From the NCBI GenBank assembly GCA_015067565.1, contig SVMF01000006.1, positions 44,906 to 108,905 of the forward strand: a stretch of 64,000 bases of DNA, given 5' to 3'. Below are positions 6,635-62,266 of the stretch, in pieces. Position numbers and translations under genes: made by a program. This DNA is from Oscillospiraceae bacterium. Its GTDB lineage: Bacteria; Bacillota; Clostridia; Oscillospirales; Oscillospiraceae. Each line of letters starts with the position of its first letter. Position 1 is the stretch's first letter. The notes under the pieces were generated by a model. That model was given only the letters and a program-made list of their open reading frames with translations, was not told where the DNA came from and searched no databases.

Positions 6635-7069
6635 TTGAATCCGAATCTTCCGAGTGAAAAGCGAAGATTTGCGGCGGCTTATCTGCGTTGCTTCGATGCC
6701 GAGGCGGCCGGTGAGCAGATCGGCAGACCTGACGGCATTCGTCTGCTGTCGACACCTGCGGTGCAGGAGGAGCTGAGATTGCAGCGCACCCAATGCGACA
6801 TTTGCCGTCAGGATGTTTTAAGACGTTTGGCACAGCTTGCCTTCGGCAGAGCCAATGATTGCGTGAAGCTGGTACTGAATGAGGAGCCTGATTTGGATGC
6901 GCTCGATCTGAGCCTCTTAAGCGAGGTCAAGCGCAACGACAAAGGAACTGTGGAGGTTAAGCTGATCGACCGAGTGAGGGCGCTTCAGGAGCTTTTGCAG
7001 GCAGGAAACCAGACAAACGATGCGGCTGAGCTCTTTTTTGCCGCCGCGGAGGATGTGCAGGAAGATTGA
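6635..7069 (+). CDS. Phage terminase small subunit
   Basis: First gene of a phage head cassette. The protein (about 144 residues) begins NPNLPSEKRRFAAAYL and carries an N-terminal helix-turn-helix-like region (RFAAAYLRCFDAEAAGEQIG). This is the usual arrangement of terminase small subunits that recognise packaging sites and recruit the large subunit. I chose the TTG at 6635 because AGAGGTGAT lies about six bases before it. The in-frame ATG at 6617 has no ribosome binding site. The stop overlaps the start of the large subunit gene. Assignment rests on position and general features. Confidence 0.75.
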   Translation: MNPNLPSEKRRFAAAYLRCFDAEAAGEQIGRPDGIRLLSTPAVQEELRLQRTQCDICRQDVLRRLAQLAFGRANDCVKLVLNEEPDLDALDLSLLSEVKRNDKGTVEVKLIDRVRALQELLQAGNQTNDAAELFFAAAEDVQED

Positions 7070-8307
7070 AATTCTCAAAAAAACAGCGCATCGTCTTAAA
7101 CTGGTGGCAAAAAAGCTCGGTGCACTATGAAAAGGAAGCCATCATCTGCGACGGTGCGGTTCGATCGGGAAAAACGCTTTGCATGGGGCTGAGTTTTTTC
7201 TTGTGGGCGTGCTCAAGCTTTTCGGGTGCGAGATTCGGCATTTGCGGCAAGACCATTGCGTCCTTGCGGAGAAATGTGCTGACGGAGCTGCTGCCAAAAT
7301 TAAAGGCCATCGGCTTTACTGTAACGGAAAAGCGAACCGAGAATTTGGTTCGTGTTTCTTTTCGCGGAAAGACGAATGATTTTTATATTTTCGGCGGGCG
7401 AGACGAGAGCTCCTCGTCGCTCATTCAGGGCATTACCTTTGCAGGCGTTTTGCTCGATGAGGTCGCGCTGATGCCCCGAAGCTTTGTGGAGCAGGCTTGC
7501 GCAAGATGCTCCGTTACGGGGAGCCGTCTGTGGTTCAATTGCAATCCCGAGGGGCCGAGGCACTGGTTTTACAATGAATGGATCCTCGGTGCGGACAAGC
7601 GAAATTGCCTATATCTGCACTTTACCATGCAGGACAATCCATCGCTGTCACCACAGATCCGCGCCCGATATGCAAGGCTCTATTCGGGGGTGTTCTACCG
7701 TCGGTTCGTGCTCGGGCAATGGGTTGCTGCTGAGGGGCGCGTGTACGACTTTTTTGATGCCGCCTCCGCGCCTCCGCCACCGACGGGCGAGTTCTCCCAA
7801 TGGTACATCTCCTGCGACTACGGTACGGTCAATCCGGCCTCCTTCGGTCTTTGGGGCCTGCAGGAGGGTATTTGGTATCGTGTCAGGGAGTTTTACTTCG
7901 ACTCCCGACGGGAAATGCGCCAGATGACCGATGCGGAATATGCCGACGAGCTGGCGCGTCTGGCAGGGGAGCGCAGCATCACGGCGGTCATCGTTGATCC
8001 ATCGGCTGCCAGCTTCATCGAGCTGCTGCGCAGACGGGGGTGGTGCGTCCGACGTGCTGACAATGATGTGCTCAGCGGCATCCGCAGAACATCGGATCTG
8101 CTCAAGGCAGGAAAGCTCGTCATCTGCGACACCTGCGTGGACTGTCTGCGTGAGATGGAGCAATATGTCTGGGATACCAAGGCCGGCAAGGATGCTGTCA
8201 AGAAGGAGCATGACCATGCGATGGACGATATGCGCTACTTTGCCGCGACTGTTTTGCGGCAGCAAAAGACACCAATGGCGGTTTGCTCTGTCAGCCGCCG
8301 TGGATGA
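7066..8307 (+). CDS. Phage terminase large subunit
   Basis: 413-residue packaging motor and nuclease that pumps phage DNA into the prohead. The N-terminal ATPase shows DGAVRSGKT (Walker A) and GVLLDEVALM (Walker B with catalytic Glu). The C-terminal RNase H-like nuclease shows YISCDYGTVNPASFG, where an Asp starts the metal site, and later VIVDPSAASF and DHAMDDMRY. The length fits PBSX-type terminases. The start is a TTG that overlaps the TGA of the small subunit gene, with AGGAAG just upstream. All catalytic signatures appear intact, so the gene is not visibly decayed. Confidence 0.93.
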   Translation: MKFSKKQRIVLNWWQKSSVHYEKEAIICDGAVRSGKTLCMGLSFFLWACSSFSGARFGICGKTIASLRRNVLTELLPKLKAIGFTVTEKRTENLVRVSFRGKTNDFYIFGGRDESSSSLIQGITFAGVLLDEVALMPRSFVEQACARCSVTGSRLWFNCNPEGPRHWFYNEWILGADKRNCLYLHFTMQDNPSLSPQIRARYARLYSGVFYRRFVLGQWVAAEGRVYDFFDAASAPPPPTGEFSQWYISCDYGTVNPASFGLWGLQEGIWYRVREFYFDSRREMRQMTDAEYADELARLAGERSITAVIVDPSAASFIELLRRRGWCVRRADNDVLSGIRRTSDLLKAGKLVICDTCVDCLREMEQYVWDTKAGKDAVKKEHDHAMDDMRYFAATVLRQQKTPMAVCSVSRRG

Positions 8308-8331
8308 CACAAAGGATGGAAAGGGGGTGAA

Positions 8332-9474
8332 ATGATGAAGAAAAAGCGTTCTCAAGCATCAAGGGATGCGGTTGCCACTGCGGTCACGCAGCTTCGTGGG
8401 GATCAGGCGCATCCCTTTGCCTCGATCGCAAGCTACACACCGCTCGGCGGCGGGGAGGCCAGACTCTATCAGTCCATGCGTGAGGCGGTGCCGATCCTCG
8501 ATGCGGCCATCACCAAGCTGGTACGGCTTTGTGGCGGCTTTCGTGTACGCTGCGATCACCGCGAGGCTGAGCTGGCGGAGTTTCTGCGTACCGTGCCCTG
8601 CGGTCGTGGACAAAGGGGGATTCACAACTTTTTGTCGGCATATCTCGACAGCCTTTTGCTCTATGGCCGTGCCATCGGGGAGATGGTCGTGCAAGATGGG
8701 GAGTTGATCGGTATTTGCTGGGGCGATGTGACGCAGGTACAGATCTGCCAAGGAGCTTCGCCTCTGGACATCACCATCTGCGCACCGGACGAAAACGGTC
8801 ATATGCGACCGCTGCCGCAGCAGAAGCTCCTGCTTCTGACCACGCTCAATCCCGAGCCTGCCAATCCCTATGGTGTGTCGATGCTGCGCAGTATGCCGTT
8901 TTTGGTCGACATTTTGCTCAAGATCTACAAGACCATAGGCACGAACTGGGAGCGTGCAGGCAATGTGCGCTATGCCGTCGTTTGCAAGCCCGGCTCGGAC
9001 GGTTTTGAGCAAAGCGGTGCGGCCGAACGTGCCGAGGCGATCGCAGGGGAGTGGTCGTCTGCCATGCAGGAGAGTAAGAACGGCATCGTGCGCGATTTTG
9101 TGGCCGTGGGCGATGTGTCCATCCGCGTCATCGGCTCGGATGGGCAGATCCTCGACTCGGAGGTGCCTGTCAGGCAGATCCTGGAGCAGCTTGTTGCAAG
9201 GACAGGCCTGCCGCCTTTTCTGCTCGGGCTAAGCTGGTCGAGCACCGAGCGCATGAGTCAGCAGCAGGCCGATGTGCTGACAAGCGAGCTCTGGGCGATC
9301 CGCAGAAGCGTCGAGCCGATCCTCGAGCGCATCTGCCAGATGTTCCTGCGCTTGCGTGGCGATTCGTCCAAGCTGACGATCATCTGGGACGAAATTACCC
9401 TGCAGGATCTTCTCGAGCAGGCGCACGCTGAGCTGTACCGTGCGCAGGCCAATGCCATCACAAACGGAGAGTGA
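8332..9474 (+). CDS. Phage portal protein
   Basis: 380-residue protein between terminase and protease, the standard position for the dodecameric portal through which DNA enters the capsid. It begins after AAGGGGGTGA and contains ARLYQSMREAVPILDAAI near the N-terminus, a portal-like pattern, plus NPYGVSMLRSMPFLVDILLK and a C-terminal helical part with LSWSSTERMSQQQ. The length is on the short side for portals (usually 400-500). No frameshift is visible. Calls are by context and motif style. Confidence 0.82.
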   Translation: MMKKKRSQASRDAVATAVTQLRGDQAHPFASIASYTPLGGGEARLYQSMREAVPILDAAITKLVRLCGGFRVRCDHREAELAEFLRTVPCGRGQRGIHNFLSAYLDSLLLYGRAIGEMVVQDGELIGICWGDVTQVQICQGASPLDITICAPDENGHMRPLPQQKLLLLTTLNPEPANPYGVSMLRSMPFLVDILLKIYKTIGTNWERAGNVRYAVVCKPGSDGFEQSGAAERAEAIAGEWSSAMQESKNGIVRDFVAVGDVSIRVIGSDGQILDSEVPVRQILEQLVARTGLPPFLLGLSWSSTERMSQQQADVLTSELWAIRRSVEPILERICQMFLRLRGDSSKLTIIWDEITLQDLLEQAHAELYRAQANAITNGE

Positions 9475-9478
9475 TTCT

Positions 9479-10387
9479 ATGAATATTCGCAAGGAGGCAT
9501 CTGTGTGCACCGAGGCAGCGGTAAATGAGCAGATGCTGGAAAAAATCAACCGCTACACCAAAACGCCCCTCACGGCAGAGCAGGTCTACTGTTTCAGCGT
9601 TCGCCTGTGCGACGATCTGCCCGACCGTGACTTTGAACGCTTTGATACCGCTGCCTTGCCGATCCTGGCAGAGCTTTTTTGCGGCAAAACGGGCATCGTG
9701 GACCACGATTGGTCGGCAGATCGCCAAGTGGCCCGTATCTTTGACACGCAGGTATGCTCGCAGGACGGTGTGAGCTTTGTGCAGGCTTGGTGCTATGTGC
9801 TTCGTACCCCGGGCAATACCGAGCTGATCGCACAGATCGAAGGCGGCATCAAAAAGGAGGTCTCTGTCGGCTGTGCCGTCGGCGAAAGCCGATGCAGCAT
9901 CTGCGGCAAGGCCTATGGCACCTGCGAGCATCGCAAGGGGATGGAATATGACGGGCAGACCTGCCTTGCCGTCTTGTGTGAGCCTACAGATGCCTACGAG
10001 TTTTCCTTCGTCGCCGTGCCGGCGCAGCCGCTGGCAGGTGTTCTGAAGGCAAAGACGGGAGGTGAGAGTATGACCCTTCAGGAATTGGTCAGCAAGAACG
10101 GCACGAGCGCCATGTGCGACAGCCTCAAGGCCTTGCAGACCGAAGCGGAGTTTGGCAGACAGTGCCGAACCGAGTGTGTGGAAAGCACGGTAGCGCTTTG
10201 CTTACAGCTCGGCCTCGGAGAGGAGGCTGAAATTCTGAAAAAGGCCTTCGACGCACTGAGCTTTGCAGAGCTTTCGGCGCTGAAGACCACGATGCGCCGA
10301 AAGGCAAACAGTCTGTATCCCAATGCGCCGCAGCTGCCGTGCAGCACGATGGTGCACGATCCCGTCAGCAACGACTACATGATTTAG
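9479..10387 (+). CDS. Putative prohead protease with zinc-binding Cys/His motif
   Basis: 302-residue protein between portal and decoration/capsid genes. GKTGIVDHDWSADRQVARI, KKEVSVGCAVGESRCSICG and CEHRKGMEYDG, followed by EPTDAYEFSFVAVPAQP, fit phage head-maturation proteases of Clostridia. The Cys/His pairs probably bind zinc. The last third (helical, from TLQELVSK) may be a scaffold-like tail. The start is the ATG at 9479 behind GGAGAGTGAT. The role would be to cleave scaffold and capsid delta domains during head assembly. Family assignment is moderate because catalytic residues cannot be fixed by eye. Confidence 0.6.
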   Translation: MNIRKEASVCTEAAVNEQMLEKINRYTKTPLTAEQVYCFSVRLCDDLPDRDFERFDTAALPILAELFCGKTGIVDHDWSADRQVARIFDTQVCSQDGVSFVQAWCYVLRTPGNTELIAQIEGGIKKEVSVGCAVGESRCSICGKAYGTCEHRKGMEYDGQTCLAVLCEPTDAYEFSFVAVPAQPLAGVLKAKTGGESMTLQELVSKNGTSAMCDSLKALQTEAEFGRQCRTECVESTVALCLQLGLGEEAEILKKAFDALSFAELSALKTTMRRKANSLYPNAPQLPCSTMVHDPVSNDYMI

Positions 10388-10398
10388 GAGGATTTTTT

Positions 10399-10740
10399 AT
10401 GTTTATTTGTCACGAAAACGAAGGTCAGCTCTGCACGACCTTCCAGTCTGCCGGTGAAATGACCGTTGGTGCTCCCTGCACCATGGCCTACAGCAACATC
10501 ATCAAAACCAGCGATGCCGATGAGGCCTTTGTCGGCATCATCGCTTCTGCCCGTGGAAACATTGCATCGGTCATCATGCGCGGACTGGTCACCGTCGGCT
10601 ATTCCGGCAATATGCCGTCCATCGGCTTTACCGCTCTTGTCGCCGACGGCACAGGCAAGGTCAAAATGGGCGAAAGCGGCAACACCTATGCCATTGTTGC
10701 CGTCGATACCAATGCCAAGACCGTTACATTTCTGATTTAA
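10399..10740 (+). CDS. Head decoration-like protein
   Basis: 113-residue protein preceded by a strong AGGAGG. It is rich in small residues and beta-prone segments (AYSNIIKTSDADEAFVGII, VIMRGLVTVGYSG, KMGESGNTYAIVAVD). The size, composition and position directly before the major capsid gene match capsid decoration/stabilisation proteins. Functional assignment is from context only. Confidence 0.55.
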   Translation: MFICHENEGQLCTTFQSAGEMTVGAPCTMAYSNIIKTSDADEAFVGIIASARGNIASVIMRGLVTVGYSGNMPSIGFTALVADGTGKVKMGESGNTYAIVAVDTNAKTVTFLI

Positions 10741-10753
10741 GGAGGATAGCAAT

Positions 10754-11761
10754 ATGGCTTTTGATAACATTCATCTGGAGAAGGGTATGTACCGTGAGAG
10801 CGGCAAGAGCTTTACGCAGGTTCTGGAGGGACTCGACCCCTCCGAGGCTTACCGCGGCACCGCACTCGAGGGCACCGATGCGTTCCAGCGTCAGCTCAAG
10901 CGTTTTGACATCCATGCCAAGGGCGCTGGCAGTGACAGTGTGGAAAAGTTCTTCCGCACCTATGAATCTGCCGTGCTGTTCCCCGAGTTCGTCGCCCGTG
11001 TGGTTCGTCAGGGAATGGAGGAGAACAACATCCTGCCCTCCGTGGTTGCAACCGTGACCAATATCGACTCGATGGACTATCGCAGCATCCATTCTGTCCC
11101 CTCTGAGAAGGACAAGACCCTGGCCGATGTCGGTGAGGGTGCGCAGATCCCCACAACCACCATCAAGACCGACGACAAGCTTGTTACGCTCAAGAAGCAT
11201 GGCAGAATGCTTGTGGCATCCTACGAGGCACTGCGGTTCCAGAAGCTCGATCTGTTCTCTGTGATGCTGCGACAGATCGGCGCCTATATCCAGAGAAAGC
11301 ATCTGGATGATGTGGTCAGACTGCTCAACACCAGCGCTACGACGTTCGTCATTGGGGACGATCCCATCAGCAGCGCAGAAGGGGAGATCGGGTATGCTTC
11401 TCTGGTCGACTTCTGGGCGCAGTTCTATCCCTATGAGATGAACACCATGCTCGTTTCCAACAGCATGATGTCCAAGCTCCTGAAGCTGCCCGAATTCCAG
11501 AATCCGCTGACGGGTCTGAATTTCCAGGGTACCGGCAAGCTTTCGACCGCGCTGGGCGCACAGATCCTGCGCAGCGATGCGATCCCCGCAAATTACATCT
11601 TTGCCCTGGACCGCAACTATGCCGTTGAGATGGTTCAGGCCGGCGATGTGAATGTCGAGTATGACAAGCTCATCGACCGTCAGCTCGAGCGTGCGGCCAT
11701 CACCCACATCTGCGGCTTCGGCATGATCATGGACGATGCTGCCAAGATCCTGGAGATCTGA
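10754..11761 (+). CDS. Phage major capsid protein
   Basis: 335-residue protein with a strong AAGGAGG site, following the decoration gene. An N-terminal region (about residues 1-80) with predicted helices is followed by a body containing LPSVVATVTNIDSMDYRS and KHGRMLVASYEAL, and a C-terminus with QAGDVNVEYDKLIDRQLERA. This is how HK97-fold capsid proteins of PBSX-like elements look. The size is normal. The frame is intact, with codon use like that of the other cassette genes. Confidence 0.8.
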   Translation: MAFDNIHLEKGMYRESGKSFTQVLEGLDPSEAYRGTALEGTDAFQRQLKRFDIHAKGAGSDSVEKFFRTYESAVLFPEFVARVVRQGMEENNILPSVVATVTNIDSMDYRSIHSVPSEKDKTLADVGEGAQIPTTTIKTDDKLVTLKKHGRMLVASYEALRFQKLDLFSVMLRQIGAYIQRKHLDDVVRLLNTSATTFVIGDDPISSAEGEIGYASLVDFWAQFYPYEMNTMLVSNSMMSKLLKLPEFQNPLTGLNFQGTGKLSTALGAQILRSDAIPANYIFALDRNYAVEMVQAGDVNVEYDKLIDRQLERAAITHICGFGMIMDDAAKILEI

Positions 11762-15640: not shown

Positions 15641-16578
15641 ATCATCTTTGAAATTCAGAATATTTTAGACGAATTTGGACTGATATGGGCGAGGAAAGTC
15701 TGTATTTTTGTGCAAAAAATCACAAATGTCGAATAATGTCGAACGAAACATGGCATTTTCGCCGTAAAATACCTTGCAAATGCCCGAATGGTGTGCTAAG
15801 TTGGTACTACCGTTCAGGAATTTGTATTTTATGGAGGAAAGGGAATGGAAAAAATGATGCGGGTGCTGCTGGCAAACAGCAACGAGGATTTTACCCGAAA
15901 TCTCTCGGCAACACTCAGGCAGACAGAACGATATGCGATTGTCGGAACGGCCCCTGACGGGGTCAGCGCAATGGAGCTTCTGCGCCAGCTCAAGCCGGAG
16001 ATTTTGGTTTTGGATATGATGCTTCCGAAGGCAGACGGCATTGCCGTTGTCAAGGCGGCCTCGCTTCTGGACAAGAAGCCGTTGATCCTGGTTCTGGCGG
16101 ACTTCATGACGGAGTTTGTCGGTGCCGCGCTGCAGCAGCACGGGGTAGAATATGTCATGCTCAAGCCGTGCACGACGGCTGCGATCGCCGAACGATTGGA
16201 TCAGCTGCGAGAGAGCGGCAAGCCAAAGGAGCGTCCGAACATCGAAACGATGGTGACCTCGATGATCCACGAGATCGGTGTGCCTGCGCATATCAAGGGC
16301 TATCAGTACCTGCGAGAGGCGATCATTCTGGCCGTAAAGGACATGGAGGTCATCAACGCAATCACGAAGGTTCTGTATCCGCAGGTGGCAAGAACCTTTG
16401 CCACGACACCGAGCCGTGTGGAGCGAGCCATCCGCCATGCCATCGAAGTTGCTTGGGACAGAGGCGACCTGGATACGCTGCAAAGATTTTTCGGCTATAC
16501 CGTCAGCAATACCAAGGGAAAACCCACGAATTCCGAGTTCATCGCCCTCATCGCCGATAAGCTCCAGCTGCAGCTCAA
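15641..16578 (+). repeat. Left copy of a 938-bp inverted repeat carrying spo0A
   Basis: Bases 15641-16578 match the reverse complement of 61329-62266 over exactly 938 positions, with 12 substitutions by my count and no gaps. The match covers about 200 bases of promoter DNA and all but the last few codons of spo0A. It ends abruptly at both sides. Ten of the 12 differences fall in 16447-16483. Confidence 0.92.
15727..15743 (+). promoter_or_regulatory. Tandem Spo0A boxes upstream of the left spo0A
   Basis: Two exact TGTCGAA motifs (15727-15733 and 15737-15743) lie 10 bp apart, on the same face of the helix. TGTCGAA is the established 0A-box core. They sit about 100 bp before the start codon, next to a possible TTGCAA-17-TAAGTT promoter, so autoregulation is likely. 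Confidence 0.7.
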
Positions 16579-54582: not shown

Positions 54583-55734
54583 ATGAAAAAATTTTCTGAG
54601 TATTTTACCGTGATCGGCTTCTGCGCCACCCTTGGAATTTTGGCGCTGCTGTTCCTGATCCTGCCGGATAAAGATTTTTCTCCCCAGGAAAACCGTGCGC
54701 TCAAGCAGTGGCCCGCACTCACAGGGGACAGTTTCTTCTCCGGCGAGTTTTCCCAAGAGGTCAACAGCTATTTTGCCGACCAATTCCCTGCCCGCAATGT
54801 CTTTGTCAAAATGAAAGGCGGTGCGGAGCTGCTCTTCCTCAAGGGAGAGAACAACGGCGTGCTCTACAGTCACCACCAGCTTGCGGTAAAGGATTTTAAC
54901 GCCTACCGCTCCCGTATTCACATCTCCGAGAACACCGACCGCATCTACCTGCAAAGCGCACAAGCGCAGTTTCAGGCAGTGAACACCTTTGCCGAAAATT
55001 CTTCCGTGCCTGTGGTGACGGTGCTGCCGCCCCGCACGGTGGATATTGCCGACAGCACTTTTTCCTATGACCGCCCCGACGGTGACGCCCTTTTCGCTCT
55101 CATGGAGCAGGAGCTGGTGAGCGCAGGCTATGTCGACAGCCTTTCCCTGCTTCGCCCCAGATTTGAAGCAGGGGAATATGTCTACTACCGCACCGACCAC
55201 CACTGGACCACGCTGGGTGCATATTACACTTATGCGGAAATTATGAAAGAACTGGGCAAAGAGGATGAGGTCTTGCCCATGGAAGCCTTTACGGTGGAGC
55301 AGATTTCCAATTTCAGCGGCACTACCGCTGCCAAGGCAGGTTTCCCCCTGTACGAAAAGGACACGCTGGAGCTGTGGCACCTGCCTGACGAGGAAAACTA
55401 CCGGGTTCTCGCGGATGGCAAGGAGCTGCCAGGCTTTTACGCCCGAGCGTTTTTGACGGGCAGCGACAAATATTCCGTTTTTCTTGACGGCACTCATAAT
55501 CTAACCCTCATCACCAAAAAGGGCGAAGCCAGAGAGAAGCTCCTTGTGGCCAAAGACTCCTTCGCCAACTGCCTCATTCCCTTCCTGGCCGCCCACTACG
55601 ATATCGTGGCTGTCAACCTGCGGGGCAACACGCAGCTGTCTGCCTTGGTGCAGGAACATTCTGCCCAAGCCGTTTTGATCGTCTACAATGCAGAAAATAT
55701 TATCACATCCGGCGATCTGGGCAACATTCGCTGA
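54583..55734 (+). CDS. DHHW-family AlgJ/AlgX-like acetylation protein
   Basis: 383 residues with an N-terminal signal anchor (about 8-28) and an extracytoplasmic SGNH-hydrolase-like domain. PQENRALKQWP and SFADQFPARN-like text mark the start of the DHHW family. The eponymous motif is RTDHHWTTLGAYYTY (D205 to W208), with the later DGTHN and VAKDSFANCLIPF providing the Ser-containing block. It probably accepts acetyl from the MBOAT and transfers it to wall glycan. A strong ribosome site follows the MBOAT stop by a few bases. Confidence 0.92.
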   Translation: MKKFSEYFTVIGFCATLGILALLFLILPDKDFSPQENRALKQWPALTGDSFFSGEFSQEVNSYFADQFPARNVFVKMKGGAELLFLKGENNGVLYSHHQLAVKDFNAYRSRIHISENTDRIYLQSAQAQFQAVNTFAENSSVPVVTVLPPRTVDIADSTFSYDRPDGDALFALMEQELVSAGYVDSLSLLRPRFEAGEYVYYRTDHHWTTLGAYYTYAEIMKELGKEDEVLPMEAFTVEQISNFSGTTAAKAGFPLYEKDTLELWHLPDEENYRVLADGKELPGFYARAFLTGSDKYSVFLDGTHNLTLITKKGEAREKLLVAKDSFANCLIPFLAAHYDIVAVNLRGNTQLSALVQEHSAQAVLIVYNAENIITSGDLGNIR

Positions 55735-55750
55735 AAATCGGAGGTTTTTT

Positions 55751-57115
55751 ATGAAAAAAACTGCGATAATTTTTCTTTCTCTGTTACTTATCGTGGCGCA
55801 TTTCGTCGGCTGCGACAGCGAAGCACTTCCTTCCACCAAGCCTTCCACTGCAGTACCTACCACGCAAGTGCCTACGACAGAAGCTCCCACAACTGCGGCG
55901 CCTTCTACGGAAGCTCCCACCACAGAAGCACCCACCACGGAAGCTCCTTCCACAGAGGCACCCACACAGCCTCAGGTGGAGATCCCCTTGGACAAGCCTG
56001 TGAACGTGCTGTATTGCACCTATACAGAAAAACCTTATTTTGCCATGGTGGGCACCTGCACCGAGGGTGCCACTGTAGTAGGCGAGGTGGCGGGCATCCG
56101 CTATTCCTCCAAGTCTTACAAGGGCTATTTTTCTCTGCGGCTGCCCTGTGAGAATGGCAGCGTGGAGGTCATTCTGAGCCAGACTACCGGCCCCAACACC
56201 GTTTCCGAACCCTTCAGCTACACCGCGTGGCCCAAATATCAGGAGGCAGGCCGCTGGCTCGTGGTAACGGGCGGCGATTTCCAGTTCTTCCTGCAAAAAA
56301 TGCTCCCCGACTACCAAAAGGACAATTTGGCCACGGAAGATGCCTATGCCGCCCTGGAAGAACAGGTGCAAAAACGCCTGGAAACCATGCACAGCTATAA
56401 CCCCGAAGGCGAGATTATCTATCTCATTGTGCCTTCTTCCATGTCCATCTACCCCGAGCTGGTGCCCGCTGACTATGTGCAAGGCACGGGCCAAAGCCGC
56501 TTGGACCGCATTTCCCAATCTCTGCGCAAGGCAGGTGCCACGGTCATCGACCTGAAATCCGCTTTCATGGCCCACAAAAATGACGAGATGCCCCTGTACT
56601 ACAAGCTGGACAGCCATTGGTCGGACTACGGCGCATTTGTGGCCTATGAAGAACTCTTTACCCACATTTCCAAGAAATTCCCCCATGCCGCCCCCAGAGC
56701 TTTGGAGGAATTCAACTGGAAGGCCGACTACTATCTAAGCGGCGATATAAGCCACTATTTAGGAATGTCCCAATCCGCAGTGCCGGAATACGGTTACTAC
56801 CGCAGCTTTGCCTTCGATGCGCCAAATAGCATCACCTCCATTTCCCGCTACCGTTCCCCTTCTGTCCTTACCTACAGCGATGCCATGACCTACGAAAAGT
56901 GGTTCGGCACCGAAAGGCCGGAGTTGCCCTCCTGCATGGTGATCCGCGACTCCTACTCCACGCAGATCTATGATCTCATCCTTGAACGCATGGACAACAC
57001 CCATTTTTTGGGGATGTGGAACTACACTTGGAACAGCAGCACCATCAAGGCAGAAAAGCCGGACTATGTAATCTACCTGGTGGCCGAGTGGAACATTGAT
57101 GTTCTTATGAAATAA
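55751..57115 (+). CDS. Second SGNH/AlgX-like lipoprotein with Pro/Thr stalk
   Basis: 454 residues. The signal peptide has a possible lipobox (AHFVGC, Cys about 20), followed by a low-complexity stalk of repeated PTTEAP units (about 28-75) that would extend the domain into the wall. The catalytic part has YLIVPSSMSIYPELVP, LDSHWSDYGAF (D287, H289) and the nucleophile block VIRDSYSTQIYDLI. GGAGG precedes ATG. A paralogue-like partner to the previous gene, so the MBOAT may feed two esterase/transferase enzymes. Confidence 0.9.
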   Translation: MKKTAIIFLSLLLIVAHFVGCDSEALPSTKPSTAVPTTQVPTTEAPTTAAPSTEAPTTEAPTTEAPSTEAPTQPQVEIPLDKPVNVLYCTYTEKPYFAMVGTCTEGATVVGEVAGIRYSSKSYKGYFSLRLPCENGSVEVILSQTTGPNTVSEPFSYTAWPKYQEAGRWLVVTGGDFQFFLQKMLPDYQKDNLATEDAYAALEEQVQKRLETMHSYNPEGEIIYLIVPSSMSIYPELVPADYVQGTGQSRLDRISQSLRKAGATVIDLKSAFMAHKNDEMPLYYKLDSHWSDYGAFVAYEELFTHISKKFPHAAPRALEEFNWKADYYLSGDISHYLGMSQSAVPEYGYYRSFAFDAPNSITSISRYRSPSVLTYSDAMTYEKWFGTERPELPSCMVIRDSYSTQIYDLILERMDNTHFLGMWNYTWNSSTIKAEKPDYVIYLVAEWNIDVLMK

Positions 57116-57155: not shown

Positions 57156-57203
57156 GTTCTCGTCCTGCGCCCACAAAAAAGAGGTTCTATCATAATGTCT
57201 GCT

Positions 57204-57440
57204 GAATAAGTCGCTATAGCGACTTATTCGTGCGGCATCGCCGCAAATTGCATAAAAACGGCTCTTTTTAACCGTTTTTGCACGATTCAGACATGTAAAC
57301 AATGTGTATTTTCGTTGGTGCATCGCAATGCACCAACGAAAGGTGCAAGGTTTTTGCGGTAAAACCGCCAAAATCCTTGCACTTGAACAACGCATAATAG
57401 CCATGAAAGCCTTGGCTTGCAAGGGCTTTCGCGTTGTTCA
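57204..57440. repeat. Array of five consecutive inverted repeats
   Basis: No gene. Five hairpins follow one another: a perfect 26-bp palindrome at 57204-57229 (GAATAAGTCGCTA and its complement), a composite at 57231-57282, a 14-bp stem at 57310-57341 (TTTCGTTGGTGCAT), a nested stem at 57343-57382 (GTGCAAGG outside, GCGGT inside) and a nested stem at 57384-57440 (TGAACAACGC outside, GAAAGCC inside). They separate the acetylation cluster from the AT-rich island. Confidence 0.72.
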
Positions 57441-57533
57441 GTACGCATTATTTAATAGCAAAGGCGGTCCTGTTTTTTCTGGCGAGTGGCTCACTTTTTT
57501 CTTGACGTTTGCAGCTTTGTCAGAACCTCTGGT

Positions 57534-58232
57534 CTATGCTTTTAAATATCCTCTATTGCGGAGCTCATTTGCTACATTTTTCATATCATTAAAGTATTTT
57601 TCAAATGTGTCGTGGCTACCTCTCATTTGGGGGTGTCTAAAGGATACAACTGGAATTTGCTTACCCGTTTCTAATGTGCAAAGGAAAAAATTATAGCTAC
57701 CAAGCGGCCTTTTATCCCAGTCGGAAGCATGAGAAAGCACATGGTCATGCAATATGTCAGCATTTTTGCCGGTTCCGCGACCACAACAAATAATGATGTC
57801 TGGTTGATAGAGTTCAATCTGTGTGTTGATATACACTGCATCATTCATGCCAAAGGTTCTAATTTCCTCATCCTCGGCTTCGGCGTCTCCGCCAATTTTC
57901 TTGATGTTTAAAGCAGCAATCGTTTTCATGCATTCCGTTTTATTAGCTTTTGTAATTCTCCGTTGGTAGTCACCACCACAGCGAATTGCCTGCGTCCAAC
58001 GCGCAATATTGTTCCATGTTCTCCAATAACCGGATTTCCTAGGTTCTGAAAGCAAATATGCGCACAGATCAGTATCACCATCACCCCAGTTTGCTTCTTT
58101 AAGAACATACAGGATTTTTAAATCCTGTTTTAGCCATGTTTCTTCGTCAAACAAACCATCGGATATAAAGGTGGTGTAGTTGCGCTCTTTTCGCCAACGG
58201 CTAAAAAGCTCTCGCTCTTTTTCTTTTATCAT
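57534..58232 (-). CDS. Uracil-DNA-glycosylase-superfamily-like protein
   Basis: 232 residues. It shows an N-terminal strand LKILYVLKEANWGDGDTD, a central FGMNDAVYINTQIELYQPDI followed by IICCGRGTGKNADIL, and a late VVSFRHPQMRGSH. The order of a motif A-like strand, a Rossmann-type CCG turn and an HP-containing loop recalls divergent UDG-superfamily proteins of unknown activity. The catalytic residues of true UDGs are not obvious. AAGGAG lies nine bases before the ATG, 20 bases after the WYL gene stop. AT-richer than the neighbours. Last gene of the island operon. Confidence 0.5.
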   Translation of the reverse strand: MIKEKERELFSRWRKERNYTTFISDGLFDEETWLKQDLKILYVLKEANWGDGDTDLCAYLLSEPRKSGYWRTWNNIARWTQAIRCGGDYQRRITKANKTECMKTIAALNIKKIGGDAEAEDEEIRTFGMNDAVYINTQIELYQPDIIICCGRGTGKNADILHDHVLSHASDWDKRPLGSYNFFLCTLETGKQIPVVSFRHPQMRGSHDTFEKYFNDMKNVANELRNRGYLKA

Positions 58233-58252
58233 AGAAACATACTCCTTTTTGT

Positions 58253-59293
58253 TTAAGATTGGTAGCGATTGAGTGCATTCTGTAAATCTTCTTTTACAGT
58301 ATGTGCCAAGTCAGAGGGGGACAAGACGCGAACATGGCGGCAGTATTGCAGTGCCCAGTGGCGCATGGCGCTCCAATTGACGGTGACACGGGCTGTGACT
58401 TCCTCCTCTGTTTCCTCAGAGAAGGTGATGTCTGTGCCGAACCAGTCGATCACGTCATTCAAGATGCCTTTTTTCATTCGGAAGGTTACGGGGACGCTTT
58501 CACCGCTGAACATATACAGGTGCTCTGCCATGTGCTTGGGAAGGGAAAACTGCTTTCCCCCTTCTACCTGCTCTTTGGGTTTTATGGGGCTGTCCAAAAG
58601 CCGAATATTCGTGATCCGATCTATGCGGTAGTTGGCGAGATAGTCGTATTTGTCATAGTTGCCAATCAGATAATATCGGCCGTTGGTAGCTGCCATCTGA
58701 TAGGGATTGACGATGTACTCCTGCTCCCGCCTGGGGTGCAGCTTCTTGTCGATACCGTATTTGTTATAGGTAAATGCCACCTGCTTTCCCATTGCAATGG
58801 CTTCATCAATGATTTCGATGGTATAAAACAGCTGCAGATTCGCAGGTTTCGTCTCCGGGAAGGTGGAAATAAACCGCACTCTGGGCTTGAAGTAACGATT
58901 GGAAAGCCCTTCTAACTTTTCCACAAGCTCTTTGCATTGGCTGTAAGGGATGTGCTTGGAGAACAGCAAGCTGTCGATCAGAAGTCGCAGCTCCGCATCC
59001 GTGAAATCCCGTTCCAGATAGAAGTCAGAGAGGATATAGCTGGTTTCTTTCTTGCCCTGTTTGTTGATGTAAGTCCGAGCCACATCGTCCCTGCACTCGA
59101 TGGGATAACCGGCCGCCATCAGATTTGACAGATTCCGGGCCACGGTTTTGCGATCTGCAGTCATATCGTAGTCAGACTGCAGAAGCTCTATGATCTGCTT
59201 CTGACTCAGCTTATGTTCCTCATCTGTGTACCGTTTCAGAATATCCAAGATATTCATGATCAGCATTTTCTTTGCCGGTGCAGTTTGTGCCAT
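58253..59293 (-). CDS. WYL-domain transcriptional regulator
   Basis: 346 residues. N-terminal helix-turn-helix (LDILKRYTDEEHKLSQKQII, then DRKTVARNLSNLM); WYL domain at about 150-230 (VAFTYNKYG, IVNPYQMAATNGRYYLIGN, YRIDRITNI) and the C-terminal WCX extension (VTFRMKKGILNDVIDWFG). WYL proteins bind single-stranded or other nucleic-acid ligands and often repress defence operons (for example BrxR/CapW-type regulators). The ATG at 59293 lies six bases after GAGGTG. Imperfect inverted repeats just upstream could be its operator. Between the GyrA-like and UDG-like genes, all on the minus strand. Confidence 0.9.
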   Translation of the reverse strand: MAQTAPAKKMLIMNILDILKRYTDEEHKLSQKQIIELLQSDYDMTADRKTVARNLSNLMAAGYPIECRDDVARTYINKQGKKETSYILSDFYLERDFTDAELRLLIDSLLFSKHIPYSQCKELVEKLEGLSNRYFKPRVRFISTFPETKPANLQLFYTIEIIDEAIAMGKQVAFTYNKYGIDKKLHPRREQEYIVNPYQMAATNGRYYLIGNYDKYDYLANYRIDRITNIRLLDSPIKPKEQVEGGKQFSLPKHMAEHLYMFSGESVPVTFRMKKGILNDVIDWFGTDITFSEETEEEVTARVTVNWSAMRHWALQYCRHVRVLSPSDLAHTVKEDLQNALNRYQS

Positions 59294-59382
59294 TTCAATC
59301 ACCTCGTATTCAGAGTATCATGTTTGACACCGTATTACAATACCCAATGTGGCATTTCTGCCCCATCCGGTGAATTTTCGTA

Positions 59383-60567
59383 TTATAAATCAATCATTTC
59401 CGTCTTTCTGGGTTTTGCGTGTTTTTCCTTAATGGCAAGCAGTTCTCGGCACATTTCTTCGCTTGTTGGTGCTGCTCCGTTTTTCTTCTGAAGGAAGTCC
59501 CGATAGAACGCCAAATGCTCCGATAGAATGCTGTGTAGCGACATTCTTGCGGGCTCATTGCCGGAAAGCAGAATCGCCTGATAATCAACGACAGTATCCA
59601 GCTCTGTTTTTTGGTAAAGCAAATCCAGTACCTTGGGAATATCTGCGTTTGCTTTAAGCTCTACGCCGATTTCGGCGTAGTACATGGGGTACGCTCTTAC
59701 GACTCCGGGAAGCGCATCATCCCAGACAAGCATATCAATCCACTTTGTAAGTGCTTCCGGATCATTGGCCACTGTTATGGGAGTTTCTCTAAATATCAGT
59801 GTGGACTTTCTTTTTCTTCCCTCAGGTGGTTCCACGTGTGCTTTGCTCCGTATCCGAATTTGCCCCCGTCCCTTGCGGTAAATTTCTTCCAATTCACTTT
59901 TGTTCGTTACGATCCCTCCGGTGATAAAGTCGGGACCTTGAATATAGTCCATAACACATTCCGGAGGCAAGTCAGGATCTTTGATCATCGCCACCATTGC
60001 ATCTATTACTTCCCCTAAGTTGTGGGGCGGAATTTTGCTCACAAATCCGTCTGCCGTTGTATCTGTGCCTAAAATAACTGCCCAGGGAAGGCAGGAAGGT
60101 AATACAAGTGGCACCTTACCTCCTGAGATATAGTTATCATTTCCATACTGAACATAAGATTTGTTCACGTATCTCAGCATGGTATCTTCTGCAACAGAAC
60201 TGATTCTGATTTCTGTGAACCGAGGAGATGCAGGTCCATATCCATATCCGCCAAAGTTCCCACGACCTGCTTCTATAAGCGCCACGGTATTAAAATGCTG
60301 GGTCATTTGTGCAATGGTGTTATTAATTAAATCGGATTCTCCATAACCCAAGTGATCAGACATTTCCTCGCCAATGCCATATTTGCCTCCTGCATCTAAA
60401 AATGTTAATATTGTGTTTTCATATTCAGCACTGCCGGATAAATTGCGCACATACATTGTCCAAAGTATACGTCGCTGCCTTGGTGTTAAGCCATCCCGAA
60501 CATCCGGAAGATTGTAACGTTCATCGTCTGTTATGATGTCGACTTTCTTCTTCAATGCTTCTGTCAT
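59383..60567 (-). CDS. Truncated GyrA/ParC-like protein without the active-site tyrosine
   Basis: 394 residues. Matches the N-terminal breakage-reunion part of type IIA topoisomerase A subunits: YNLPDVRDGLTPRQRRILWTM, then MSDHLGYGESDLINNTIAQM and LIEAGRGNFGG. The block equivalent to MRYTEIR of E. coli GyrA reads PRFTEIR here, so the DNA-cleaving Tyr is Phe (F117). The HxHGD region is also changed (HLGYGES). The chain stops at the start of the coiled-coil gate and lacks the beta-propeller. No GyrB-like gene is in the window. It starts at the ATG at 60567 behind GGAGG. First gene of the WYL/UDG-like island. Probably a non-cleaving DNA-binding protein. Confidence 0.85.
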   Translation of the reverse strand: MTEALKKKVDIITDDERYNLPDVRDGLTPRQRRILWTMYVRNLSGSAEYENTILTFLDAGGKYGIGEEMSDHLGYGESDLINNTIAQMTQHFNTVALIEAGRGNFGGYGYGPASPRFTEIRISSVAEDTMLRYVNKSYVQYGNDNYISGGKVPLVLPSCLPWAVILGTDTTADGFVSKIPPHNLGEVIDAMVAMIKDPDLPPECVMDYIQGPDFITGGIVTNKSELEEIYRKGRGQIRIRSKAHVEPPEGRKRKSTLIFRETPITVANDPEALTKWIDMLVWDDALPGVVRAYPMYYAEIGVELKANADIPKVLDLLYQKTELDTVVDYQAILLSGNEPARMSLHSILSEHLAFYRDFLQKKNGAAPTSEEMCRELLAIKEKHAKPRKTEMIDL

Positions 60568-60854
60568 AGTATAAATTTCCTCCTTCTGTCTGTGTTGTTC
60601 GATCTGTATATATAATAACTCGTTGGATGGGGCAAAAACATCCCATCCAACGGGAAGCAATTCATGCCTATCTCTTACCGTAAAAGAAGCCCGGAGGAAA
60701 GAAAAATCTTCGGAGTTTTCGGTGCAGTAAGGGTAACTGTAAGGGTAAAACAGGGTTTTAGTTTGCTTAGGCGTCATTTTTCTGCATTTCTCAAAGATTG
60801 AGATTTGTTTCGTGTTTTTCGGAGTTTCTCTTGCTTGCTTCGTTTTTAGATAAG
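60568..60854 (-). other. Leader of the GyrA-like gene
   Basis: About 290 bases between the GyrA-like start and the tRNA terminator. The frame stays open upstream on the minus strand, but no ribosome site supports a longer protein. It contains a short repeated GTAAGGGTAA stretch (60727-60750) and no convincing promoter. Confidence 0.4.
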
Positions 60855-60886
60855 AAAAGATCCTGATTTCTTCCGAAATCAGGATC
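60855..60886 (-). terminator. Terminator of the tRNA-Val gene
   Basis: GATCCTGATTTC / GAAATCAGGATC, a perfect 12-bp stem with a 4-base loop, followed on the minus strand by TTTTCTT, about 10 bases after the tRNA CCA end. Confidence 0.88.
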
Positions 60887-60895
60887 TTCAAAAAC

Positions 60896-60972
60896 TGGTG
60901 GACGATATAGGACTCGAACCTATGACCTTCCGCACGTCAAGCGGATGCTCTAGCCAGCTGAGCTAATCGTCC
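60896..60972 (-). tRNA. tRNA-Val (GAC)
   Basis: 77-base tRNA with a perfect 7-bp acceptor stem (GGACGAT / ATCGTCC), D arm GCTCAGCTGGCTAGAGC, anticodon stem-loop TCCGC-TTGACGT-GCGGA giving anticodon GAC (valine), T arm ATAGG-TTCGAGT-CCTAT, and an encoded CCA. The accessory island lies on its 3' side, a common integration target, but no attachment-site duplication was found. Confidence 0.97.
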
Positions 60973-61303: not shown

Positions 61304-62062
61304 TTACAGTGCGATGGCATTGCTGCGCTTGAGCTGCAGCTGGAGCTTATCGGCGATGAGGGCGATGAACTCGGAATTCGTGGGTTTTCCCTTGGTATTG
61401 CTGACGGTATAGCCGAAAAATCTCTGCAAAGTATCCAGATCGCCCCGATCCCATGCCACCTCGATGGCATGGCGGATGGCTCGCTCCACACGGCTCGGTG
61501 TCGTGGCGAAGGTTCTTGCCACCTGCGGATACAGAACCTTCGTGATTGCGTTGATGACCTCCATGTCCTTTACGGCCAGAATGATCGCTTCTCGCAGGTA
61601 CTGATAGCCCTTGATATGCGCAGGCACACCGATCTCGTGGATCATCGAGGTCACCATCGTTTCGATGTTCGGACGCTCCTTTGGCTTGCCGCTCTCTCGC
61701 AGCTGATCCAATCGTTCGGCGATCGCAGCCGTCGTGCACGGCTTGAGCATGACATATTCTACCCCGTGCTGCTGCAGCGCGGCACCGACAAACTCCGTCA
61801 TGAAGTCCGCCAGAACCAGGATCAACGGCTTCTTGTCCAGAAGCGAGGCCGCCTTGACAACGGCAATGCCGTCTGCCTTCGGAAGCATCATATCCAAAAC
61901 CAAAATCTCCGGCTTGAGCTGGCGCAGAAGCTCCATTGCGCTGACCCCGTCAGGGGCCGTTCCGACAATCGCATATCGTTCTGTCTGCCTGAGTGTTGCC
62001 GAGAGATTTCGGGTAAAATCCTCGTTGCTGTTTGCCAGCAGCACCCGCATCATTTTTTCCAT
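61304..62062 (-). CDS. spo0A: Stage 0 sporulation response regulator Spo0A, right copy
   Basis: 252 residues, identical to the left copy at 15845-16603 for residues 1-243 or so, then ending LKRSNAIAL instead of LKTEKAVHF. The same receiver features apply: phospho-acceptor Asp in [12 protein letters not shown], and the same LLANS in place of the acidic pair. The DNA-binding domain is intact. The promoter and tandem Spo0A boxes are duplicated too. It lies beside tRNA-Val and is divergent from the lipoprotein at 62345. Whether both copies are expressed, or one is recent, cannot be told from sequence. The terminator differs from the left copy. Confidence 0.95.
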
Positions 62063-62266
62063 TCCCTTTCCTCCATAAAATACAAATTCCTGAACGGTAG
62101 TACCAACTTAGCACACCATTCGGGCATTTGCAAGGTATTTTACGGCGAAAATGCCATGTTTCGTTCGACATTATTCGACATTTGTGATTTTTTGCACAAA
62201 AATACAGACTTTCCTCGCCCATATCAGTCCAAATTCGTCTAAAATATTCTGAATTTCAAAGATGAT
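61329..62266 (-). repeat. Right copy of the 938-bp inverted repeat carrying spo0A
   Basis: Reverse-complement partner of 15641-16578. The two arms enclose about 44.7 kb. Sequence diverges completely just outside both ends. Confidence 0.92.
62164..62180 (-). promoter_or_regulatory. Tandem Spo0A boxes upstream of the right spo0A
   Basis: Two TTCGACA motifs (reverse of TGTCGAA) at 62164-62170 and 62174-62180, spaced 10 bp, identical to the left copy. They lie between spo0A and the divergent lipoprotein gene, so either gene could respond. Confidence 0.7.

Follow-up and report, generated by a model that had tools for sequence, protein, structure and literature searches.

In BrxR-type regulation, inverted repeats precede both the gene of the WYL-domain regulator and the next operon (PMC9122601). 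Another WYL protein, DriD, binds single-stranded DNA (PMC12340889), and proteins of the UDG superfamily act elsewhere as defence glycosylases (preprint PMC13160076). Here, we describe an island (positions 57534..60895) studied within a 64,000-nt stretch of contig SVMF01000006.1 of an Oscillospiraceae bacterium (assembly GCA_015067565.1), hereafter termed the window. Three minus-strand genes of the island, located 3′ of a tRNA-Val gene, encode a short relative of gyrase subunit A (GyrA), a WYL-domain regulator and a UDG-superfamily-like protein. We tentatively read the locus as an accessory, likely mobile, WYL-controlled island, whose GyrA-like protein would be a non-cleaving DNA-gate protein without an exit gate that likely hinders the replication of invading DNA (probability of roughly 0.42). 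The island comprises the following features:

59383..60567, minus strand: GyrA-like gene, 394 amino acids (aa); DNA-gate half (winged helix and tower) with Phe at the catalytic Tyr, without exit gate and C-terminal domain
60607..60655, minus strand: palindrome 1, predicted operator, 39 bp upstream of the GyrA-like start codon (52.7 bits with palindrome model R1, see below)
59329..59375, minus strand: palindrome 2, partly decayed, predicted operator just upstream of the WYL gene (38.9 bits with R1)
58253..59302, minus strand: WYL-domain regulator, 349 aa, assigned by Pfam; 87–90% identity to the array-ending WYL proteins of G352 and G353, two other Oscillospiraceae
57534..58232, minus strand: UDG-superfamily-like protein, 232 aa (Pfam UDG E 0.067)

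The GyrA-like gene is followed after approximately 80 bp by the WYL gene and, a further 20 bp downstream, by the UDG-like gene. The original prediction, made from the letters alone, had placed three minus-strand open reading frames (ORFs) in an AT-richer segment 3′ of the tRNA and named them a pseudo-topoisomerase, a WYL regulator and a UDG-superfamily-like protein. The ORFs are located where it had put them, and the GC content of the island is 44.3%, compared to a mean of 54.1% (standard deviation 1.9, minimum 48.6%) for 269 overlapping segments of equal length. The prefix “pseudo” is borne out by Phe at the GyrA Tyr122 position, and the WYL assignment by WYL and WCX matches above their cut-offs; the third label survives as a weak likeness, which does not reach the family cut-off. 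The observation is therefore real, and better founded than a note from sequence alone could show.

Comparison with the described systems revealed likenesses and differences in each case. The GyrA-like protein shares with GyrA/ParC (PF00521) the winged-helix and tower regions, the Arg before the catalytic site and the PPHNL and GPDF regions, but it has Phe in place of Tyr, Thr in place of Lys42, has lost the His motif and lacks the exit gate and the C-terminal domain; moreover, no GyrB gene was seen beside its gene. As in BrxR-type loci (PMC9122601), inverted repeats precede both the WYL gene, which is linked to accessory genes, and one further gene. Unlike in those loci, the WYL gene lies 3′ of its predicted target, and the palindromes, to which binding is predicted, are longer. 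The Brig1/Brig3 DNA glycosylases (PMC13160076) are likewise UDG-superfamily proteins recruited into defence islands, whereas the protein of the window is weakly UDG-like and has no UDG match among solved structures at E ≤ 5. Both Gabija genes (GajA-GajB) lie beside a related GyrA-like gene in G353; in contrast, Gabija was not recognised beside the island of the window, and the GyrA-like protein matches no PADLOC model.

The GyrA-like protein and its family

An ATG codon at 60567, located behind a GGAGG ribosome-binding site, was taken as the start of the GyrA-like gene in preference to a TTG at 60891, which gives a protein of 394 aa. The Pfam model DNA_topoisoIV matched this protein with E 2.2e-52 (178.8 bits, cut-off 31), placing it in the GyrA homology superfamily, and its residues 20–359 align to residues 34–362 of E. 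coli GyrA in comparison with GyrA structures. Phe occupies the Tyr122 position in the alignment, i.e. the protein lacks the catalytic tyrosine of an active type IIA topoisomerase A subunit, and the same residue is found in all 20 tree rows of its clade. Compared to gyrase 3lpx, approximately 13 residues stand where 3lpx has approximately 140 (the tail alignment itself is weak, 6 bits), which indicates that the exit (C-) gate is missing. The tail falls on the very end of the 3lpx breakage-reunion domain, and its RKTEI end is common to the short GyrA-like family. With the three island genes and spo0A set aside, no ORF of suitable size between 57.1 and 62 kb looked, by eye, like a GyrB/ParE partner. 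The genome (2.1 Mb in 31 contigs) also encodes an ordinary GyrA and a ParC-like protein.

The short-family alignment comprised 56 rows (the window, 49 database proteins and 6 loci; fragments and near-copies included). The Tyr122 position is occupied by Phe in 38 rows, by Tyr in 17 and by Ile in one odd fragment, so that an early idea of Tyr loss across the whole short family proved wrong. Thr stands at the Lys42 position in 53 rows, Lys in one, and two rows have a gap. Phylogenetic analysis separated the short proteins from full-length GyrA/ParC by a single branch (support 100/99, and 100/100 in a second tree). The Tyr label needs three changes within the short family in the second tree, from which seven rows (fragments, near-copies or suspect sequences) had been removed. 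The dN/dS ratio (nonsynonymous to synonymous substitution rates) was approximately 0.12 between the window and locus L004, and 0.21 between L008 and L009, which argues that the short proteins are maintained by purifying selection. As judged from its sequence, the GyrA-like protein is a member of a separate family of short GyrA relatives, and neither cleavage by the known chemistry nor strand passage via an exit gate would be expected of it.

The distribution of the short form was examined at several taxonomic levels. It was found in none of 16 same-genus genomes (E ≤ 1e-50; some incomplete, down to 55%), in agreement with the accessory status proposed for the gene, in 1 of 99 genomes, own included, at the same threshold, and in the own genome only among 394 genomes of the order (E ≤ 1e-46). 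The other 22 of the 23 order genomes with a match encode full-length gyrases (open frames of 825–891 aa). A pattern-limited scan of 84,980 species genomes yielded eight loci, six of which (L004–L009) contain family members; the other two (L010, L011) contain full-length ordinary gyrases and were dropped. The window and L004–L009 are referred to below as the seven GyrA-like loci. The best of 143 “phage” records with a match, MT839958.1 (L034, named Bacteriophage sp.), was inspected: this unannotated record has a GyrB-like gene followed by an ordinary topoisomerase A gene (745 aa), and the GyrB/GyrA-type pair is probably bacterial DNA. A conserved GyrA-like family of this kind, with the DNA gate retained but cleavage chemistry (in most rows) and, as judged by alignment, strand passage lost, was not found in the open-licence literature searched for it, and a term search of the main text of a machine-learning survey of defence genes (PMC13092281) returned neither topoisomerase nor gyrase.

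The WYL regulator, the palindromes and related arrays

The regulator matched the Pfam models WYL (E 1.7e-11, 44.4 bits, cut-off 21.8) and WCX (E 1.6e-5, 25.6 bits, cut-off 23.9), with no helix-turn-helix (HTH) model above its cut-off at the N-terminus in the Pfam scan. Its identity to the array-ending WYL protein is 90% in G353 and 87% in G352. In these two genomes the GyrA-like gene opens a longer array, in the order GyrA-like, DnaB_C with macro domain, leucine-rich-repeat (LRR) or AAA protein, DnaB-like fusion, UvrD, Spo0A-like regulators and WYL. The DnaB-like gene of G353 is shortened, and its DnaB-like fusion is without the DnaB part. A complete Gabija system adjoins the G353 array (GajA E 1.5e-200, GajB E 4.4e-199), and L006 encodes, within 5 kb, a GmrSD-like protein and a WYL protein of 49% identity. 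In total, the GyrA-like and WYL genes are linked in four of the seven loci. The content 3′ of the WYL gene varies: an LRR-like protein (by eye) is encoded in G352, whereas G353 has, among small ORFs, a 212-aa protein with UDG-like motifs and 40% identity to one in L008. The palindrome arrays of L079 and L080 contain two Spo0A-like genes each, one of which, in L080, has no receiver domain match.

Two palindrome models were built: R1 from nine copies, two of them from the window, starting from repeats seen in L004 and L005, and R2 without the window copies. R1 gave two matches in the own genome at E ≤ 0.01, upstream of the GyrA-like and WYL genes (150 of 226 candidates scored; the model holds both copies). 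With R2, palindrome 1 was the best match in the 64 kb (E 1.3e-9). Palindrome 2, located at the same place as in L079 and L080, was not reported by a plain inverted-repeat scan of the window. Nine same-strand sites in the G352 array and five in that of G353 make, with the two of the window, 16 sites, all of at least 37.7 bits and seven of them outside the model. For 15 of these (E ≤ 4e-9), 5 of 12 arm pairs change on both sides in an alignment fitted to the model; in four of five covariation measures none of 500 shuffles was as high, and the fifth (pair types) was reached by 57 of 500. R1 matches outside the arrays, in 12 genomes, did not exceed 32.8 bits and were not counted as array sites.

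Inverted repeats lie upstream of both the regulator gene and a predicted target gene, as in BrxR-like loci, the WYL-side copy being weak. The recurrence of the palindrome together with GyrA-like-to-WYL arrays in two further genomes shows that the GyrA-like and WYL genes are a real pair, and the arrangement of sites suggests that the WYL regulator likely controls the GyrA-like gene.

Relatives of the WYL gene were also found in nine plasmid records, three of which were inspected: the gene lies beside McrC (Butyrivibrio), near an AAA ATPase (Eubacterium eligens) and beside an LRR gene (Ruminococcus albus). Two of four plasmid WYL genes examined are preceded by long palindromes, and the core of one of these looked related by eye; R2 gave no match in the plasmid stretches.

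The alternative that survives best, although we consider it unlikely, is that the palindromes are transcription terminators or cassette-joining sites and that the co-occurring genes form a cassette array and not a regulon. The palindromes do stand at unit borders: homology between the window and L004 ends inside both flanking palindromes, and that between L004 and L005 breaks inside the third. The seven weaker look-alikes that were inspected elsewhere are all located at the 3′ ends of genes, and the first hairpin of the window was partly listed as terminator-like. However, palindrome 1 separates the GyrA-like gene from a divergent HTH-Fic gene in G353, and the contig of G352 contains the start of that divergent gene (by eye), which argues that it is not a terminator there; in the window no protein gene precedes it. 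The long palindromes upstream of plasmid WYL relatives speak in the same direction. As for cassette joining, the arms are approximately 13 bp long, and no integrase or transfer gene was recognised among the ORFs read or scanned in the island and in 16–20 kb of each long array. The attC sites of integrons are longer than these palindromes.

The insertion site and interpretation of the island

The island is surrounded by three further features:

60896..60972, minus strand: tRNA-Val(gac), the 3′ side of which is a variable insertion site in the genus
61304..62062, minus strand: second spo0A gene, across the tRNA from the island, within a 938-bp inverted duplicate
57184..57457, no strand assigned: repeat of approximately 265 bp with many genomic copies, located at the distal island edge

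The tRNA-Val gene was found in 8 of 17 genomes of the genus, own included. A tyrosine integrase (Phage_integrase) is encoded on its 3′ side in three of the seven relatives (G001, G007 and G010), an Mrr-type restriction endonuclease in G012 and a PLD-domain protein in G014; none of the 3′-side ORFs of G003 and G008, judged by eye, is integrase-like. The 5′ side of the tRNA in the own genome also differs from that of the relatives, so that no site could be identified as cleanly empty. A 25-base piece of the 3′ end of the tRNA was matched nowhere else in the window when up to three mismatches were allowed, in agreement with the earlier remark that no attachment duplication is to be seen. The variable tRNA-Val site supports the interpretation given in the original prediction. 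We read the island as accessory and likely mobile.

The trio which the original prediction had treated as a unit is supported for the GyrA-like and WYL genes, but not for the UDG-like gene, the family of which is found, among the seven loci, beside a GyrA-like gene in the window only. Neighbouring known defence genes, for which that prediction had proposed to look, were recovered beside relatives (Gabija in G353, the GmrSD-like protein in L006), but none was recognised beside the island itself among the ORFs judged by eye and, in part, scanned.

On the basis of neighbourhood and control, the island would probably act against phages or mobile elements. It is predicted that (i) the WYL protein binds the two palindromes upstream of its own gene and of the GyrA-like gene. 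Through them it would (ii) repress its own gene together with the UDG-like gene, and the GyrA-like gene, as BrxR does, and it would (iii) dissociate in response to a nucleic-acid signal that reports infection or damage, a model proposed for BrxR. The GyrA-like protein, having lost the catalytic Tyr and the exit gate, would hold DNA or topoisomerase partners without cutting; it may then (iv) occupy DNA as a non-cleaving gate, or act as a decoy for gyrase partners, and so hinder phages. The UDG-like protein could be an exchangeable companion acting on nucleic acids, perhaps a base-excising effector like Brig. If this is true, a fold of the topoisomerase type can be put to use for binding or as a decoy. 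The palindromes define a small predicted regulon, i.e. the genes expected to be switched on through the WYL protein. Should the arrays prove protective, gut Clostridia would offer a new source of defence genes.

Several results weigh against this reading. Tyr is kept in 17 of the 56 family rows and the Arg-Tyr pair is intact in seven; one of these seven, P0260, resembles an ordinary full-length gyrase that has been truncated. Several GyrA DNA contacts are altered (Lys42 to Thr, Gln at the Arg91 position, His78/80 motif lost), which makes DNA binding by the GyrA-like protein doubtful. Palindrome 2 is weak with R2 (13.3 bits, E 0.094), being the second-best site of the window, and a promoter scan gave seven promoter-like sites, compared to 7.0 in shuffled sequences, i.e. 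no excess. No PADLOC family matched the GyrA-like or the UDG-like protein at E ≤ 1, and no defence gene was recognised beside the island in the window, where ORFs were judged by eye and some were scanned. Scans of viral contigs yielded no GyrA-like family member, and a phage origin of the family was dropped on these grounds. Three of the seven loci (L007–L009) are without a WYL gene or a recognised defence gene in flanks of up to 8 kb; the WYL gene sits 9–12 kb away in G352 and G353, and such flanks could miss a gene at that distance.

It is also rather unlikely that an integrative element left the island behind as a remnant or carries it as satellite cargo, with host-protein look-alikes (GyrA-like, DnaB-like and Spo0A-like) that would manipulate host replication and sporulation for the element and not for defence. 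The tyrosine integrases at the same tRNA-Val in three of seven relatives fit such an origin, as do the Spo0A-like genes in both long arrays, the second spo0A gene beside the island, and the units containing the GyrA-like gene in L007–L009, which have copies of the spoVT start region at their borders (those of L008 and L009 share 93% identity and occupy different loci). Against it stand the defence neighbours in two loci, the lack of viral contig matches, and the fact that no integrase or transfer gene was recognised in the ORFs read in the island or the long arrays.

An extension of the defence reading, which we regard as doubtful, is that the WYL-controlled arrays of uncultured Clostridia collect disarmed copies of the replication and sporulation proteins of the cell (gyrase without Tyr and exit gate, DnaB motor domains, Spo0A paralogues), all preceded by the same palindromic operator, and thereby provide decoy or dominant-negative immunity.

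More improbable still is a role of the GyrA-like protein as a chromosome-topology or nucleoid factor, a paralogue modulating host gyrase or topoisomerase IV without a part in defence. Its clear GyrA homology, the purifying selection and the GyrA-like genes without recognised partners in L007 and L009 agree with this role, whereas its very patchy occurrence (1 of 394 order genomes) and the linkage to WYL and accessory genes in four of seven loci do not. Finally, a chance meeting of three unrelated accessory genes beside a tRNA, as the absence of the UDG-like family beside the GyrA-like gene in the other six loci and the differing content 3′ of the WYL gene in G352, G353 and the window might suggest, is very improbable given the four linked loci and a palindrome common to both genes with no other model match in the own genome.

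The UDG-like gene and other features of the window

The UDG-like protein scored 13.7 bits with Pfam UDG (E 0.067, cut-off 24.3) and 13 bits with NCBIfam UDG_fam4 (cut-off 125.3); since the Pfam score is below its cut-off, the label “UDG-superfamily-like” rests on weak similarity. Comparison of its profile with solved structures gave no UDG at E ≤ 5. The protein was found in 6 of 300 genomes of the family, own included (E ≤ 1e-10), and in 1 of 391 genomes of the class, the own one (E ≤ 1e-25). Its family lies beside the GyrA-like gene in one of the seven loci, the window. Distant relatives (29–37% identity) are located near a WYL gene in three of five loci, two of them from one genus; one of this pair, L084, which was scanned, also encodes type IV restriction-like and DdmD-like proteins, and in L083 a DnaB-like gene is the immediate neighbour of the UDG-like gene. 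Within the island of the window, the UDG-like gene appears to be exchangeable. A 201-aa protein with UDG-like motifs in L008 was tried as a family member and rejected, as it gave no alignment with the UDG-like family of the window. On a Vibrio plasmid (L144, NZ_CP049914.1), a relative of 32% identity lies among small accessory genes (catB9, VOC, toxin, SIR2), which look like those of a Vibrio superintegron.

Small units, some with a GyrA-like gene, were observed in L007, L008, L009 and L076 (G350:C63); a copy of the spoVT leader, together with the first codons, closes each of them. Such copies are stacked upstream of spoVT in G350 and are also found away from it; the units are apparently an unrecognised element targeting the spoVT start. 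L008 further encodes, at 871–1461, a DnaB_C-like protein (Pfam E 0.0033, below the cut-off) whose Walker A Lys appears, by eye, to be Arg, possibly a further case of a disarmed replication-type protein encoded next to a GyrA-like gene.

In the region 57.0–62.5 kb, nothing besides the tRNA matched Rfam at E ≤ 0.1. A DHHW-type gene (55688–57115) was tried as an anchor for the neighbour search; it was found in the own genome only and therefore gave no anchor. The spo0A gene is present twice in the window, within a 938-bp inverted duplication (15641–16578 and 61329–62266, 98.7% identity), and is single-copy in each of the 14 other genomes of the genus with a match. The repeat of approximately 265 bp contains internal palindromes and has at least 18 other near-full copies in the genome (40 of 49 candidates scored). 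Phage head genes (terminase large subunit, portal and major head protein) are located at positions 7066–11761 of the window.

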